From contig CAMAPT010000003.1 in the NCBI GenBank assembly GCA_945860225.1, positions 1 through 64,000 of the forward strand: DNA of 64,000 nt, read 5' to 3'. The position numbers and the translations under genes were made by a program. The DNA is from Chitinophaga pinensis (GTDB lineage: Bacteria; Bacteroidota; Bacteroidia; B-17B0; Aurantibacillaceae). Below are positions 56,862 to 63,282 of this stretch, piece by piece. Numbering within the stretch: the first letter of the stretch is position 1; every line of letters starts with the position of its first letter. Under the pieces are notes generated by a model, which was not told the DNA's origin, searched no databases, and saw only the letters and a list, made by a program, of their open reading frames with translations.

Positions 56862-57257
56862 CTATTTATCTAGTAAAGGCAAAATCACATTTTTGATGTC
56901 AACGAAATCCCAAGGTTTCGTAAAAAGACCATCTAGCCCATAATGGGTTTTAAAATCTTCAATTTGCTCTGTATCAGCCTGACCCGTCAAAATAACTTTT
57001 TGAACATCGGGAAATTTACTAATGGCATGTTTTAAAATATCCGTTCCTTTTGCGTCGTCCAAATGGTAATCCGAAATGACTAAGGCTAAGTCTTGTCCGT
57101 TCTCGTAAAACTCATCGATCAACTGAATAGATTCATCTCCTGAAGAGGCGGCCTCCAGTAAAACAGATTCTGGAAGAAGCCTACTAATTTGGATACGAAG
57201 CGATTCTAAAATGATGAACTCATCATCAATGATGAGTATAGCTTTATTGCTCGGCAT
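56862..57257 (-). CDS. Receiver-only response regulator
   Basis: A 131-residue protein that is only a receiver domain. Acidic pair in LIIDDEFIIL (Asp11, Asp12), phosphoacceptor Asp63 in LVISDYHLDDAKG, the switch Thr in ILTGQ, and the conserved Lys in FTKPW. There is no output domain, so it must signal by binding another protein. It overlaps the preceding paralogue by 14 bp. The two share VISDY, LTGQ and KPW, pointing to tandem duplication. Confidence 0.92.
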   Translation of the reverse strand: MPSNKAILIIDDEFIILESLRIQISRLLPESVLLEAASSGDESIQLIDEFYENGQDLALVISDYHLDDAKGTDILKHAISKFPDVQKVILTGQADTEQIEDFKTHYGLDGLFTKPWDFVDIKNVILPLLDK

Positions 57258-57651
57258 TTGCTAAAAGATTATTAATAACATCCAATAAATCTTTTTCTTT
57301 CCAAGGTTTTTGCAACACTTTTAAAACAATATTTCTATTTACCAAATCAAAGGATTTCTGTTCAGTAATTTGACCGGTAAGTAAAATAATATTTAAATGC
57401 GGCAATTTGGTTTTAATGGTAGCTGCAAACTCATCGCCTTTCATTCCAGGCATTTGGTAATCAGAAATGACCAGTAATAATTCAATACCTTCGCCTACCA
57501 AATCATCTATGACTTCGAGCGCCTCTTCGGCACTCTCTGCCAATTCAAACAAATATTCCTGTTTAAACGTTTTTTCTATTTGAATTCTTAATGAATCTAA
57601 AATGATGCGTTCATCATCAACAGCTAGTATGGCTAATTTTTTTAAATTCAT
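57244..57651 (-). CDS. Receiver-only response regulator (paralogue of the next gene)
   Basis: A 135-residue receiver domain: [12 protein letters not shown] (Asp12, Asp13), phosphoacceptor Asp64 in [21 protein letters not shown] and LQKPW. The KPW ending is typical of receivers that follow GAF/PAS kinases. Its ATG overlaps the stop of the kinase gene by 4 bp (ATGA), so kinase and regulator are translationally coupled and very probably cognate. Confidence 0.92.
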
Positions 57652-60557
57652 AATTTTGGTAGTATAACAGTAAATGTAGTATTTTGTTCAGTGCTTTCGC
57701 AAGTTATTTTCCCATCGTGTTTTTCAATGATATTTTTCACGATGTTTAAGCCTAGTCCGGTACCATCGCCTCTTTTTTTGGTGGAATAAAATGCCTCAAA
57801 AATTTTAGGTAAAATATGAGCTGGTATTTCAGGTCCATTGTTGGAAAAGGAGATGATATGGTTGTTTTCGTCTTCGGCATAATCTATCCAAATGGTGCAC
57901 TCGTAATTAGCGGCTTGTAAAGCGTTATTAATGATGTTCGTCCATACCTGAGATAATTGTTCAGCGTTACCGGTTATGAGGACTTGCTTGTTTATAGAAT
58001 TAATTAATGACGTTCTGTATTTTATTTTATTCCAAAATAGCGTCACAACCGAATCTACATTTTCAAAGAGGTTAAATTGTGAAATTTCATTCTCTATATT
58101 ACCATGCGAAAAAGTATTCAGCGCCCTTACTACTTTCCCAGCCTTATCTACGGCCAAACCAATGGTTTGGGTGGACGATTTTAACTTATATAAATCGCCT
58201 GCTAAATCAACAATTATTTGATACTGAGGATGTATTAAAAAAGGCGTTAAAGCCGGTTCAAGTTTTGAAAAGCCCAATTCTACTAACTTTCGCGCCAATG
58301 AATTTTTATTCGCAATGTTTGTATTTTTTTCATTTAGCTCTTCTTCTATGGTTTTAATGAATTGTCTTTCCTCCCTGGTAGTGTGGTTTTTTGAGTAGTG
58401 TTTCAACAACGAGAATAAATCCAAACTTTGTGTAATTAATTCCTGAGGTGTTGTTTTTAATTTTTCTATCAACCCATTCATTAAACCTTGTTCCAAATTT
58501 TCATTCGATGCCTTAATAGCTCCTAGAGGCGTATTGATTTCATGAGCAATACCGGCAATTAGCATTCCTAAAGTCGCCAATTTTTCTTGTTGCACAACAT
58601 CTTCTTGCAATCCTATTAAGTCTTTTATGGCTTGATTTAAAGAATTGTTTTTTTCTTTTAATTCTTCTTGCGACCATTTTAACTGTTCTGTTTCATAGGC
58701 CAATACAATAAAATCAGCCACCGAACGGGCAAACGAAATTTCGTTATCCGAAAATGTCTTTGGTTCTCCAATGTATTCGTTACAAATGACACCTATTGAT
58801 TTTTCAGACTGTAATAACGGTACATCTAGCCTCGATTTAATTTGAAGCGGCTTCAAATAGCTTTCTTTAAATTCGAATGTTGCAGGATGATGTTCCGCAT
58901 CCGTAGCCTCAATTACTTTTTTATCCCCTAAGGCTTTAAAATAAGCAGGCACATCCTTGGCCCAAATAGTTATTCCTTCAATAAATGTTTGATTAATTTG
59001 ATTGTAAATATAATTGGCGCTAATATTTGAATGATCATCACTATATAACCAAACTGAGGTGCGGCTACAATGGAGATTCTCAGCCATTTTTTGATGAATA
59101 ATTTTTAATTTATCATCCAAAGGCATATTTTGTGGCAAACTTCGCATTTCTAAAAGCGCTTGTTGCTGCCTTATAAATGCGTCATTTTTTTCCTTCTCTT
59201 GTTTTTCTATTTGTTTAATCTCAGTAATATCATGCAAATACAGTCGAAATATTTGCTTTTCTTCTAAAAAGAAAATATTGCGTTCATAAAATTTACCGTT
59301 TAAATCAAATGTTATTTTAGATGTATCTTTTATGGAGATAGTTTCTTCGCTGATGTGCAATTTTTGAATTAATTCGTCGTAAGAAAAAGATTCGCATTGA
59401 CTGATTTTCTGTTTGGCAGCCGGATTTATGTATGCAATTTCTTTTTTACCATAGTTAATTTCAAATACAGGATTAGGATTTTGTTCCGGAAAAAGCGCCA
59501 AACTTTTAATTTCTTTGGTTCGCTCATTAATACGATCCTCCAATACGGCATTCAAATTCACAAGCGTATTTTTAGAGTCTTCTAACTGTTTGTTTTTATC
59601 GCGCAATAAATCATTCAATTTTTTTGAATCTTCCAATCCTTTAGTTGAAGCCTGCTGTAAAAACAGGTATTCGGCTATGTAGTCTTGTTTAGGAAAATCA
59701 GTCACATTTACCACATAGTTAGCTAAAGGCAATTGGGTATTAATAATCGGTGTTGCAAATATAAAATAGGTATTTTCATCGTTTCTTTTTACCGAACATT
59801 TGTATTTCTGTTTTTCATCATACGAGGTAAAAAACAACATGCGATGATGCAAATCGCTATCATCCAATAATTTTTGCGCATCAAAGCGCGAATTCCAATA
59901 AAAAAATTGACTAAATAACCTTCCTTTATCAATCGCTGAATTGGCTTTTTTAAAATTTTGTCCAAACTCTACGATTTCATTGTTGCTATTAATTAAAAAA
60001 TAATAGGGTGTTGAAAAATTGATGCAGTCAAACAAAAATTGCCTAGATTGTTCTAAAAGACTGTTCTTTTTCTTAATGCTCAATGAAGCGATGACTTTTT
60101 TGGCAAGAATTTTCAGTGCCTTAATTTGCTGCTGGCTCAATGCTCTTGGCCTACTATCAATAGTACAAATGGTACCTAATGCAAAACCATTTTCATCAAC
60201 AAGTGGCACCCCAGCATAAAAAACAATATCCGGGTTACCCGTTACCAAAGGATTATCATGAAAACGCTCATCTTTTCGAGCATCCTCCACAATCATCACA
60301 TCGGTTGGGTTTAAAATGGCATGGCCGCAAAACGAGATTTCGCGGCTTGTTTCGCTAGCTTCAAGCCCTACTTTTGATTTAAACCATTGTCGATGTGCAT
60401 CAATTAAACTGATAACGCAAATAGGTGTTTGGCAAATTTCGGAAGCCACAGTTGTAATGTCGTCGTACTCTTGCTCGTCCAATGTATCTAATATGCCATA
60501 ACTTTTGAGGGCATTTAAGCGTTCGGCTTCATTTATAGGTAATGTAGGTGCAATCAT
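57648..60557 (-). CDS. Cytosolic GAF-PAS-GAF sensor histidine kinase
   Basis: A 969-residue kinase without membrane helices. GAF at about 25-160 ([40 protein letters not shown]), a PAS-like region at about 175-290, coiled coil at about 300-350, PAS at about 355-450, second GAF at about 475-625, coiled coil, then the phosphoacceptor His672 in [18 protein letters not shown]. About 110 extra residues (about 695-800) separate this helix from the rest of the dimerisation domain. HATPase_c at about 860-969 ([24 protein letters not shown]). It lies 4 bp behind the H-NOX gene, which suggests it receives the haem-sensor signal. Confidence 0.93.
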
Positions 60558-60561
60558 CTTT

Positions 60562-61110
60562 TTAATTCCATTCTATTTTAAACACTTCACATTCCTTGTT
60601 TTCAAGTTTTGTTTCGATGAGCTGAACGCGGTAATTGTTCATGTTAAATCGTTTGCCCAAACCTTTCAGTAAGCCAACAACCATTGGGCTCATGCCTTCG
60701 CGATGCGACCGGTATTCGAGTTCAATAGAGGTCGAAGTTTCATTACGAGTTGAAAATTGAGGGGCAACCATATTAGGCATAATATTGTTCAAGCGATGAT
60801 GCAACATATCCAAATTATTTAAAAAATCTGATAAATTATCTCCCGCCAATTCCATCATATCACCATAACCTTCGTTTACGGTATACAAAACCCAATATTC
60901 GCCAAATGCCTCCAAAACAAATGAAGAATCGGCCCCTAATACTTTAGAAGAATTTTTGACTAGTGTGTAGGTTAATGAATCGGGATAAGATTGTAAACCG
61001 ATAAAAAAATCGTCTTCAAAACCACTCATTTTTTTTATTTCGCTCCATTTGTCTTCTCCAAACTTTTCACACACTAAATCCTGAATGGCTTTATTTACTA
61101 ATCCGTACAT
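60562..61110 (-). CDS. H-NOX (haem NO/O2-binding) sensor protein
   Basis: A 182-residue stand-alone H-NOX domain. The proximal haem ligand is His104 in [10 protein letters not shown]; Pro117 (MVAPQF) and the haem-propionate triad Tyr133-Ser135-Arg137 (EYRSHREG) have the same spacing as His102, Pro115, Tyr131-Ser133-Arg135 of the Thermoanaerobacter protein. The position of its O2-stabilising distal Tyr140 is Pro142 here, so NO rather than O2 is the expected ligand. Stand-alone H-NOX proteins usually regulate a neighbouring kinase or diguanylate cyclase; the next gene is the 969-residue kinase, 4 bp away. Confidence 0.93.
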
Positions 61111-61158
61111 CGTATTTTTTAATTATAATGGTTATTAATTTATTCTTTTATACCCAAG

Positions 61159-63282
61159 TTATGCGATAAATTCAAATTCGAAAAGAAAATGTTTGTCTTC
61201 CGGAAAAACAGCCGTTCCTTTTAATTGTTTTATGAAATTCTCTATTAATCGGAAACCAAAGCCGCCATTTTTCAATTGTTTCAATGGTTCCGGCAAGCCA
61301 TTTCCTGTATCGGTATAAGTCATTTTGTAGGTTGTTTGCTCTTTTTCAATGGCGACTCCTATTTTCACTTCATCATTGGCTACACCGTACTTACAACTAT
61401 TTGATATAAGCTCACTAAGCAATAATCCGAATGAAATAGATTTTGAAAGCGACAAAGAAACCTCAGGCTGAATGTCTATATCAAAATGAATGAGTTTAAC
61501 GTTTTTGTTATCAAATAATTTTTTATAATAGTTAGCCAATTCATAGGTATAATCATGTAAATTAACTTCTGAAAAAATACCACTTTGATACAATTTTTGA
61601 TGAACCAATGCTATCGTTTTGATGCGCATTTGAATATCGGTTAAATTTTCAACTAACTGTTCATCGGTTGTTTTACTTTTTTTCAGTTCAATAATACCAT
61701 CGATAATGGCTAAATTGTTTTTGACACGGTGATGCACCTCTCCTATTAAAACATCGTTCTCTTTGAGTTTAAATTCAAGTTGCTCAATCAACTGTTTTTC
61801 TTCGGTAATATCTATAATATAAACAATGATTTTAAGTTCATTGTCTGATGTTTTGATTACTGAAAAACGCAATGAAAAAACCTTTTCCAAACCTGTATCA
61901 GGCATTCGAGATTTCCAATCGCACGTCACTAAAAAACTTTCTTGTTTCTTTATTTGTTCCAAACTTAATTTTTGTTGTGTCGTCTCATCTAAAAAGTCAA
62001 AAATAGCTTTAAACTCCTTTTTACCTTCCCTTAAATGCAATACCTTTTCTGCAAATTCATTGGCATATTCGCAAAGAAAATTTTTGTTATCATTATTAAA
62101 CTTAAACAGTATGAACCCTCCTCGGGTACTATTGATGATGGAATGCAACAGTTTTTCATTTTCTTCGATTTTTGCCGCACTGTTTTTTAAATCAGTAATA
62201 TCAACCGAAAAACCAAAAAGATTATAATTTCCTTTTTCTTGATTAAAAATGGCTTTTTTACCACATAAAAAATGTTTGGTTTGATACCCAAAATCCACAT
62301 CCATCTCAAACTTTATCAAAGATTCGGGTTGCTGTATGGCCAAAGAATCGGTATCTTTTAATTGCAAGACACAATTTTTTGGAAAAAGATTGGTATCTGA
62401 TTGAGAAAGTACATCAGAACCTAATGTTTTTTGCATAATCTCATTGGCATGCAGGTAATTACCATTTTCATCTTTAATGTATAAGCAGATGGGTACTGAA
62501 TTAAAAACTGTTTGTAATAATTTTTCCTGCTCAATAATTTTATCGATAGCCTGTTTTTTTTCGGTCACATCTCTAAAAAAGGCATGTGTAGCTACCATTT
62601 GCCCATTTTGCAACAATGGCACCACATTCCCTTCTAATAAATAACGTTTTCCACTTTTAGAAACAAATTCTACACCAACATCTTTTAAAGCTTTTCCTGA
62701 TAAAACCTCTTGAAACATGAGCGAACAGTGGGGTTTATATTCATCTGCAATAATGTCAAATAGGTTCATATTAGCCGCTTCCTCTTCTGTATATTCCAAT
62801 TTTTGATGCCAAATAGCATTACAAAACAATAACTTACCTTCTGAGTTAAAACTTTGAATAATTTCGGGACTATTATCTATGAAATCTTTGTATTTTTTTT
62901 CGCTTTCCGCCAACTTTCCTTTTGATAGAATAAGCTCAGTGATATCAACCACCGAACCAACAATCAACATATCTTGATTTGTTTCCTGATACAAATCTGA
63001 ATTAACTGATACTGTAATCAAATTACCCGATTTGCTTTTGGCTTTCAAGTGGTAATTCTTCAAATACTTTTTACCATCTAACTCTTTCAGAAAACGAGTT
63101 CTTTCATCTGAATCAAGGTATAATACAGAAGTGTTGAGCTGAAGTAATTCATCTTTGGATTGGTAGCCAAAAATATTAGCAAAAGAATCGTTACAGTCTT
63201 TTAATTGACCACCAATGGTACTGATATAAAAACCTGTTTGACTATTCTTAATCAGAATGTTTTCTAGTTGACTGTACTGCAT
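61159..63282 (-). CDS. Multi-PAS sensor histidine kinase, HisKA_2/HWE type
   Basis: A 707-residue cytosolic kinase with four PAS domains at about 1-120, 130-245, 255-365 and 375-495 (for example YISTIGGQLKDCNDSFANIF, QSFNSEGKLLFCNAIWHQK). The phosphoacceptor region is of HisKA_2 type: GEVHHRVKNNLAIIDGI (His517/518), followed by an ATPase with LLLSELISNSCKYGV, TDTGNGLPE and GGFGFRLIENF. No membrane helix. It is 48 bp upstream of the H-NOX gene on the same strand, so it probably shares the transcript. Its cognate regulator may be one of the two receivers downstream. Confidence 0.93.
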   Translation of the reverse strand: MQYSQLENILIKNSQTGFYISTIGGQLKDCNDSFANIFGYQSKDELLQLNTSVLYLDSDERTRFLKELDGKKYLKNYHLKAKSKSGNLITVSVNSDLYQETNQDMLIVGSVVDITELILSKGKLAESEKKYKDFIDNSPEIIQSFNSEGKLLFCNAIWHQKLEYTEEEAANMNLFDIIADEYKPHCSLMFQEVLSGKALKDVGVEFVSKSGKRYLLEGNVVPLLQNGQMVATHAFFRDVTEKKQAIDKIIEQEKLLQTVFNSVPICLYIKDENGNYLHANEIMQKTLGSDVLSQSDTNLFPKNCVLQLKDTDSLAIQQPESLIKFEMDVDFGYQTKHFLCGKKAIFNQEKGNYNLFGFSVDITDLKNSAAKIEENEKLLHSIINSTRGGFILFKFNNDNKNFLCEYANEFAEKVLHLREGKKEFKAIFDFLDETTQQKLSLEQIKKQESFLVTCDWKSRMPDTGLEKVFSLRFSVIKTSDNELKIIVYIIDITEEKQLIEQLEFKLKENDVLIGEVHHRVKNNLAIIDGIIELKKSKTTDEQLVENLTDIQMRIKTIALVHQKLYQSGIFSEVNLHDYTYELANYYKKLFDNKNVKLIHFDIDIQPEVSLSLSKSISFGLLLSELISNSCKYGVANDEVKIGVAIEKEQTTYKMTYTDTGNGLPEPLKQLKNGGFGFRLIENFIKQLKGTAVFPEDKHFLFEFEFIA

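Follow-up and report, generated by a model that had tools for sequence, protein, structure and literature searches.

A Bacteroidota H-NOX, kinase and two-receiver module beside an HWE kinase, with a probable output near a receiver-PP2C phosphatase encoded elsewhere

H-NOX proteins have been described as signalling to c-di-GMP enzymes, to chemotaxis receptors, to a DNA-binding regulator and into quorum sensing. In known H-NOX/kinase systems the NO-bound H-NOX inhibits the kinase (PMC8738867), and Shewanella offers a precedent for the integration of two kinases, only HnoK being NO-responsive (PMC6335343). A distal Tyr marks the O2-binding H-NOX proteins, NO sensors having a hydrophobic residue at that position (PMC12329717). 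A search of the open literature for work linking H-NOX to SpoIIE gave nothing relevant. Receiver-PP2C regulators include HsbR. Proteins joining a receiver through a linker to a PPM domain are also known, for example P. aeruginosa RssB (PMC12143880).

The window (the whole stretch of 64,000 nucleotides that was analysed) carries on its minus strand, at 56862-63282, a PAS/HWE kinase, an H-NOX, a GAF kinase and two receiver-only proteins, and all five ORFs were confirmed at the positions first assigned to them:

61159..63282, minus strand: HWE/HisKA_2 sensor kinase with several PAS domains (707 aa; Pfam HisKA_2 74.8 bits, HWE_HK 30.3 bits, PAS)
60562..61110, minus strand: H-NOX heme protein, putative NO sensor (182 aa; Pfam HNOB 164.5 bits; Nostoc H-NOX 1.5e-50)
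57648..60557, minus strand: H-NOX partner kinase, the GAF kinase (969 aa; Pfam GAF, HisKA, HATPase; HNOBA by family and fold evidence)
59565..60089, minus strand: HNOBA region of the partner kinase (family and fold evidence; own score 17.0 bits)
57244..57651, minus strand: RR1, receiver-only regulator, Asp64 (135 aa; Response_reg 54.3 bits; same-position orthologues in relatives)
56862..57257, minus strand: RR2, receiver-only regulator, Asp63 (131 aa; Response_reg 38.5 bits; an orthologue behind RR1 in 9 of the close relatives)

The spacing given in the initial annotation was exact (a 4-bp gap between H-NOX and GAF kinase, overlaps of 4 bp between kinase and RR1 and of 14 bp between RR1 and RR2), and 48 bp separate the HWE kinase from H-NOX. 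Pfam bore out the domain calls (HNOB; HisKA_2/HWE with PAS; GAF with HisKA and HATPase; Response_reg twice). The kinase described as "GAF/PAS" also has an HNOBA domain that had been overlooked. The observation is sound and its core is ordinary: an H-NOX, an HNOBA kinase and receivers. The five genes fall into two units, the H-NOX/GAF kinase/RR1/RR2 module on the one hand and, on the other, the HWE kinase with a receiver-SpoIIE phosphatase; four of them are kept together in relatives, whereas the exact five-gene layout was found only in this genome.

We compared 80 named genome loci, with a close group of 12 loci at >=68% H-NOX identity. In the close group the kinase follows H-NOX in 12/12, then RR1 in 10/12 and then RR2 in 9/12, the exceptions including two loci that meet contig ends (L092 and L099). 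Among the 32 loci at 55-68% identity, the kinase comes next in 30 and one receiver then in 22, and a second receiver, RR2, was found in none; at 45-55%, cyanobacteria included, there is usually the kinase alone after H-NOX. The H-NOX-kinase pair is therefore the widest unit. Since the H-NOX-kinase-RR order was found again in dozens of Bacteroidota contigs, the cluster is not there by chance. H-NOX, GAF/HNOBA kinase, RR1 and RR2, in this order, form a conserved module, in which RR1 is the usual Bacteroidota receiver and RR2 an addition in the window's clade. In Crocinitomicaceae-type loci (L100, L101, L104, L106, L107, L120, L125-L127), H-NOX-kinase-RR is followed by three more genes in constant order, encoding a ~445-aa saccharopine-dehydrogenase-like protein, a 101-aa protein and a ~300-aa protein (glycosyltransferase-like in L100).

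The Asp that accepts phosphate and the T/K switch residues are retained in both RR1 and RR2, and neither receiver has the EAL, HD-GYP or GGDEF output of an Hno c-di-GMP network; an output through protein contact, as first proposed, is supported for these two receiver-only proteins. The simple recent duplication for which they had been taken is not supported: in a receiver tree, in which the placement of long rows is unsure, they form separate lineages across loci, RR1 lying nearest to the lone receivers at other H-NOX loci. At two loci, L031 and L141, the RR2 position is taken by receivers that are fused to SpoIIE. The possibility that RR2 is their direct orthologue was rejected, as position alone speaks for it and the tree lends it no support.

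The HWE kinase belongs to the HWE/HisKA_2 class, both Pfam scores being above cut-off. In six other genomes (G004, G005, G014, G151/L089, G106 and G150) such a kinase adjoins a receiver-SpoIIE gene, with one small receiver between the two in G150; the order at three loci (L094 of G005, L096 of G014, and L089) is HWE kinase, 384-aa receiver-SpoIIE, H-NOX. The window's HWE kinase is only 37-51% identical to these phosphatase-linked kinases, and its best matches in G004, G005 and G014 are the very genes that adjoin receiver-SpoIIE. G015 is without an adjacent HWE kinase. In the 455-aa HWE kinase upstream of receiver-SpoIIE in L096, the phospho-acceptor box reads NYNHLINNNL instead of EVHHRVKNNL, a change that suggests decay or altered activity.

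Receiver-SpoIIE lies <=6 kb from H-NOX in 8/12 close loci, and the adjacency recurs in two arrangements, upstream in L091, L094, L096 and L098 and convergent downstream in L090 and L097. Among 151 genomes, 7 have both this H-NOX type and receiver-SpoIIE, 1 has the H-NOX only, 1 the phosphatase only and 142 neither (Fisher 2e-10, kinship ignored), so that the phosphatase is found in 7/8 genomes with this H-NOX type. Receiver-SpoIIE cannot be a general H-NOX output, because it is absent nearby in nearly all H-NOX-kinase-RR systems below 68% H-NOX identity.

These data leave some room, though clearly the smaller share, for the HWE kinase being a chance neighbour, with H-NOX, HNOBA kinase, RR1 and RR2 acting on unlinked targets and receiver-SpoIIE serving the HWE kinase only. 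Such an arrangement would fit the lack of a SpoIIE or HWE gene near most of the loci below 68% identity, the HWE/receiver-SpoIIE pair that stands alone in G004, a genome without H-NOX, and the two genomes (G106 and G150) in which the phosphatase is not beside the module, though there the contigs end close upstream of H-NOX. Against it stand the near one-to-one co-occurrence (7/8), the adjacency in two arrangements, and the sister-species layout. We favour, as the likelier reading though with real reservation, an NO-sensing module of the Nostoc type adjoined by an HWE kinase, the two inputs probably converging on receiver-SpoIIE or its target. Counting against this are the low identity of the window's HWE kinase to the phosphatase-linked ones, the lack of such a neighbour in G015, the pair without H-NOX in G004 and the genome's many other SpoIIE phosphatases. 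The reading builds on gene order, domains, conservation, co-occurrence, an unlinked phosphatase gene and discordant trees.

The unlinked gene is the orthologue of receiver-SpoIIE in the window's own genome, which lies on another contig at C19:62894-64045 (77% to the G015 copy) and directly precedes an OmpA-like gene (G000 C19:64197-66014; L081:10698-12515). Relatives of the latter directly follow RR2 in G005, G014 and G015, where receiver-SpoIIE and the OmpA-like gene flank the module, and in the sister species receiver-SpoIIE is directly upstream of H-NOX. Thus, the module-flanking genes stand side by side here, while the module is elsewhere with the HWE kinase. The initial annotation had found no enzymatic output. 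Locally this holds, yet in relatives a receiver-PP2C gene forms part of the cluster, and the link escaped notice since that gene is located beyond the window. With an unlinked phosphatase gene, "no output encoded" can mean an output encoded elsewhere. The genome also encodes many other SpoIIE phosphatases. Contamination was ruled out for C19, which belongs to the genome because the only full GidB lies on it, and a tblastn search around the C19 receiver-SpoIIE for a remnant of the module gave nothing credible. Within the genus, the long N-terminal region of the OmpA-like protein occurs only in genomes with this H-NOX type, and the protein could be a candidate target of the pathway.

For each of the four module genes in the window (H-NOX, kinase, RR1 and RR2) the closest counterpart is that of L088/G150 (L089 ties for H-NOX). 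The partner kinase is 67% identical to that of L088/G150 versus 55% to that of same-genus species, and groups with L088 in the kinase tree (100/99), whereas the receiver-SpoIIE groups with its own genus in the phosphatase tree (94/92), the G150 copy being 46% identical. As the two trees disagree, the module has probably been exchanged horizontally. The simplest reading, drawn from gene order and two trees on fragmented metagenome assemblies, is that the module was replaced by horizontal transfer and that the native phosphatase may have been left behind.

The H-NOX is the sole copy found in a genome-wide search. Its HNOB score (164.5 bits) stands against a cut-off of 25.5, and the heme residues are present: proximal His104, and Tyr133, Ser135 and Arg137 of the YxSxR motif; the columns of these residues and of Trp73 are conserved in relatives. 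The closest solved H-NOX structure is that of Nostoc Alr2278 (1.5e-50), with which the distal pair, Trp73/Met143, is shared. Pro142, at first placed at the distal-Tyr position, was off by one: it corresponds to Ns Pro143, and at the Tt-Tyr140 position stands Met143, the counterpart of Ns Met144. The distal position is Met in 80/81 alignment rows, and the window's H-NOX has no distal Tyr. NO is a better reading of the ligand than O2, because a hydrophobic Met143 stands in place of the distal Tyr; the earlier proposal of NO sensing is kept despite the wrong residue. It is improbable that this H-NOX senses redox state or acts independently of heme, as is reported for Vibrio cholerae H-NOX (PMC7108781) and has been raised for Nostoc H-NOX, since the heme ligand, the YxSxR motif and the hydrophobic distal pocket are all conserved.

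The partner kinase contains, in order, a GAF domain, an HNOBA domain (a PAS domain of the soluble guanylate cyclase, sGC, type) with a signalling helix, a second GAF domain, HisKA and HATPase. HNOBA was not called by Pfam on the whole window kinase, so the domain was sought by scanning the family and by comparing folds. Pfam calls it in 33/35 members of the partner-kinase family, the window copy alone staying below the cut-off (17.0 against 23.4 bits); a profile built from this region matches the PAS domain of Nostoc punctiforme STHK (1.9e-5), and all 22 fold matches with E <=0.001 to an AlphaFold model of the segment (pLDDT 84.7) are Nostoc STHK PAS or sGC. By profile and predicted fold, the region is an H-NOX-associated PAS domain of the guanylate cyclase type. 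This domain and the adjacency of the genes make H-NOX and kinase a pair, the GAF kinase being therefore the dedicated partner. The kinase core was also modelled. In it (57651-58679), a helical insertion of ~75 residues separates the two dimerisation helices of HisKA; the insertion is common to the Bacteroidota H-NOX kinases aligned here, and cyanobacterial partner kinases are ~30 residues shorter from H-box to end.

It is thus the GAF kinase, rather than the HWE kinase, that HNOBA ties to H-NOX. The initial annotation had two kinases sharing one H-NOX by design, with H-NOX regulating both and both phosphorylating both receivers; despite the co-directional genes, the 48-bp gap and the HnoK and HnoS of Shewanella that feed one regulator set, this is very unlikely, as HNOBA is found only in the GAF kinase, the conserved neighbour of the HWE kinase is instead receiver-SpoIIE, and in Shewanella HnoK answers NO while HnoS does not (PMC6335343).

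A mechanism can be proposed for the Nostoc-type module with converging inputs, of which the ligand, the sign of regulation, the phosphotransfer, the convergence and the target are the parts that we infer. NO would bind H-NOX at the ferrous heme held by His104, and NO-H-NOX would dock on the HNOBA PAS of the kinase encoded by the neighbouring gene, altering, and most likely lowering, autophosphorylation of HisKA His672. Phosphate would pass to RR1, and perhaps to RR2 too, the receivers acting by protein contact; control of the kinase by NO-H-NOX and the flow to the receivers are proposed because of known H-NOX/kinase systems. The HWE kinase would be a second, NO-independent input with its own regulator, the receiver-SpoIIE PP2C encoded on C19, and both inputs would probably meet at this phosphatase or its target. 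That the pathway meets receiver-SpoIIE is suggested by the adjacency in 8/12 loci, the co-occurrence in 7/8 genomes and the SpoIIE-fused receivers at the RR2 position.

A candidate target is an RsbV/RsbW-like pair. The genome encodes one STAS protein (C21:40112-40417) and one small RsbW-like protein (C19), so that PP2C phosphatase, STAS antagonist and RsbW-like kinase, the gene set of an RsbU-type system, are all present; the three genes do not adjoin each other. A Bacteroidota NO pathway in which H-NOX, HNOBA kinase and two receivers are integrated with the HWE kinase, leading to receiver-PP2C and partner switching, is a tentative proposal, and we hold it to be rather less probable than its opposite. 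If true, this would give H-NOX a class of output distinct from c-di-GMP, from quorum sensing and from chemotaxis.

Compared with described systems, the locus belongs to a familiar kind of H-NOX/kinase system, but we found no description of its probable PP2C output. It resembles Nostoc H-NOX (Alr2278) in H-NOX subclass, best PDB match and Trp/Met distal pair, and Nostoc punctiforme STHK (PDB 2p04/2p08) in its HNOBA PAS, the cyanobacterial kinase gene also standing directly after H-NOX; unlike the window, the cyanobacterial loci are without receivers and their kinase core is shorter, while GAF domains are an addition of the window kinase. As in Shewanella oneidensis (HnoK/HnoS and HnoB/HnoC/HnoD; PMC6335343), an H-NOX and its kinase are accompanied by several regulators and by a second kinase, which there is not NO-responsive. 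The S. oneidensis regulators, however, bear EAL, DNA-binding or degenerate HD-GYP outputs, whereas those of the window are receiver-only and the nearby enzyme family is PP2C. Comparison with relatives suggests that the signal ends near a receiver-PP2C phosphatase encoded elsewhere and not in a c-di-GMP or DNA-binding protein. A Bacteroidota H-NOX module travelling with receiver-PP2C points to a different output and to a concrete, testable partner; this link is modestly novel. The phosphatase itself is like Pseudomonas aeruginosa RssB (PMC12143880) in its receiver, helical linker and PPM/SpoIIE phosphatase, with STAS and RsbW-like kinase in the genome, but its association here is with a module for NO sensing and with an HWE kinase.
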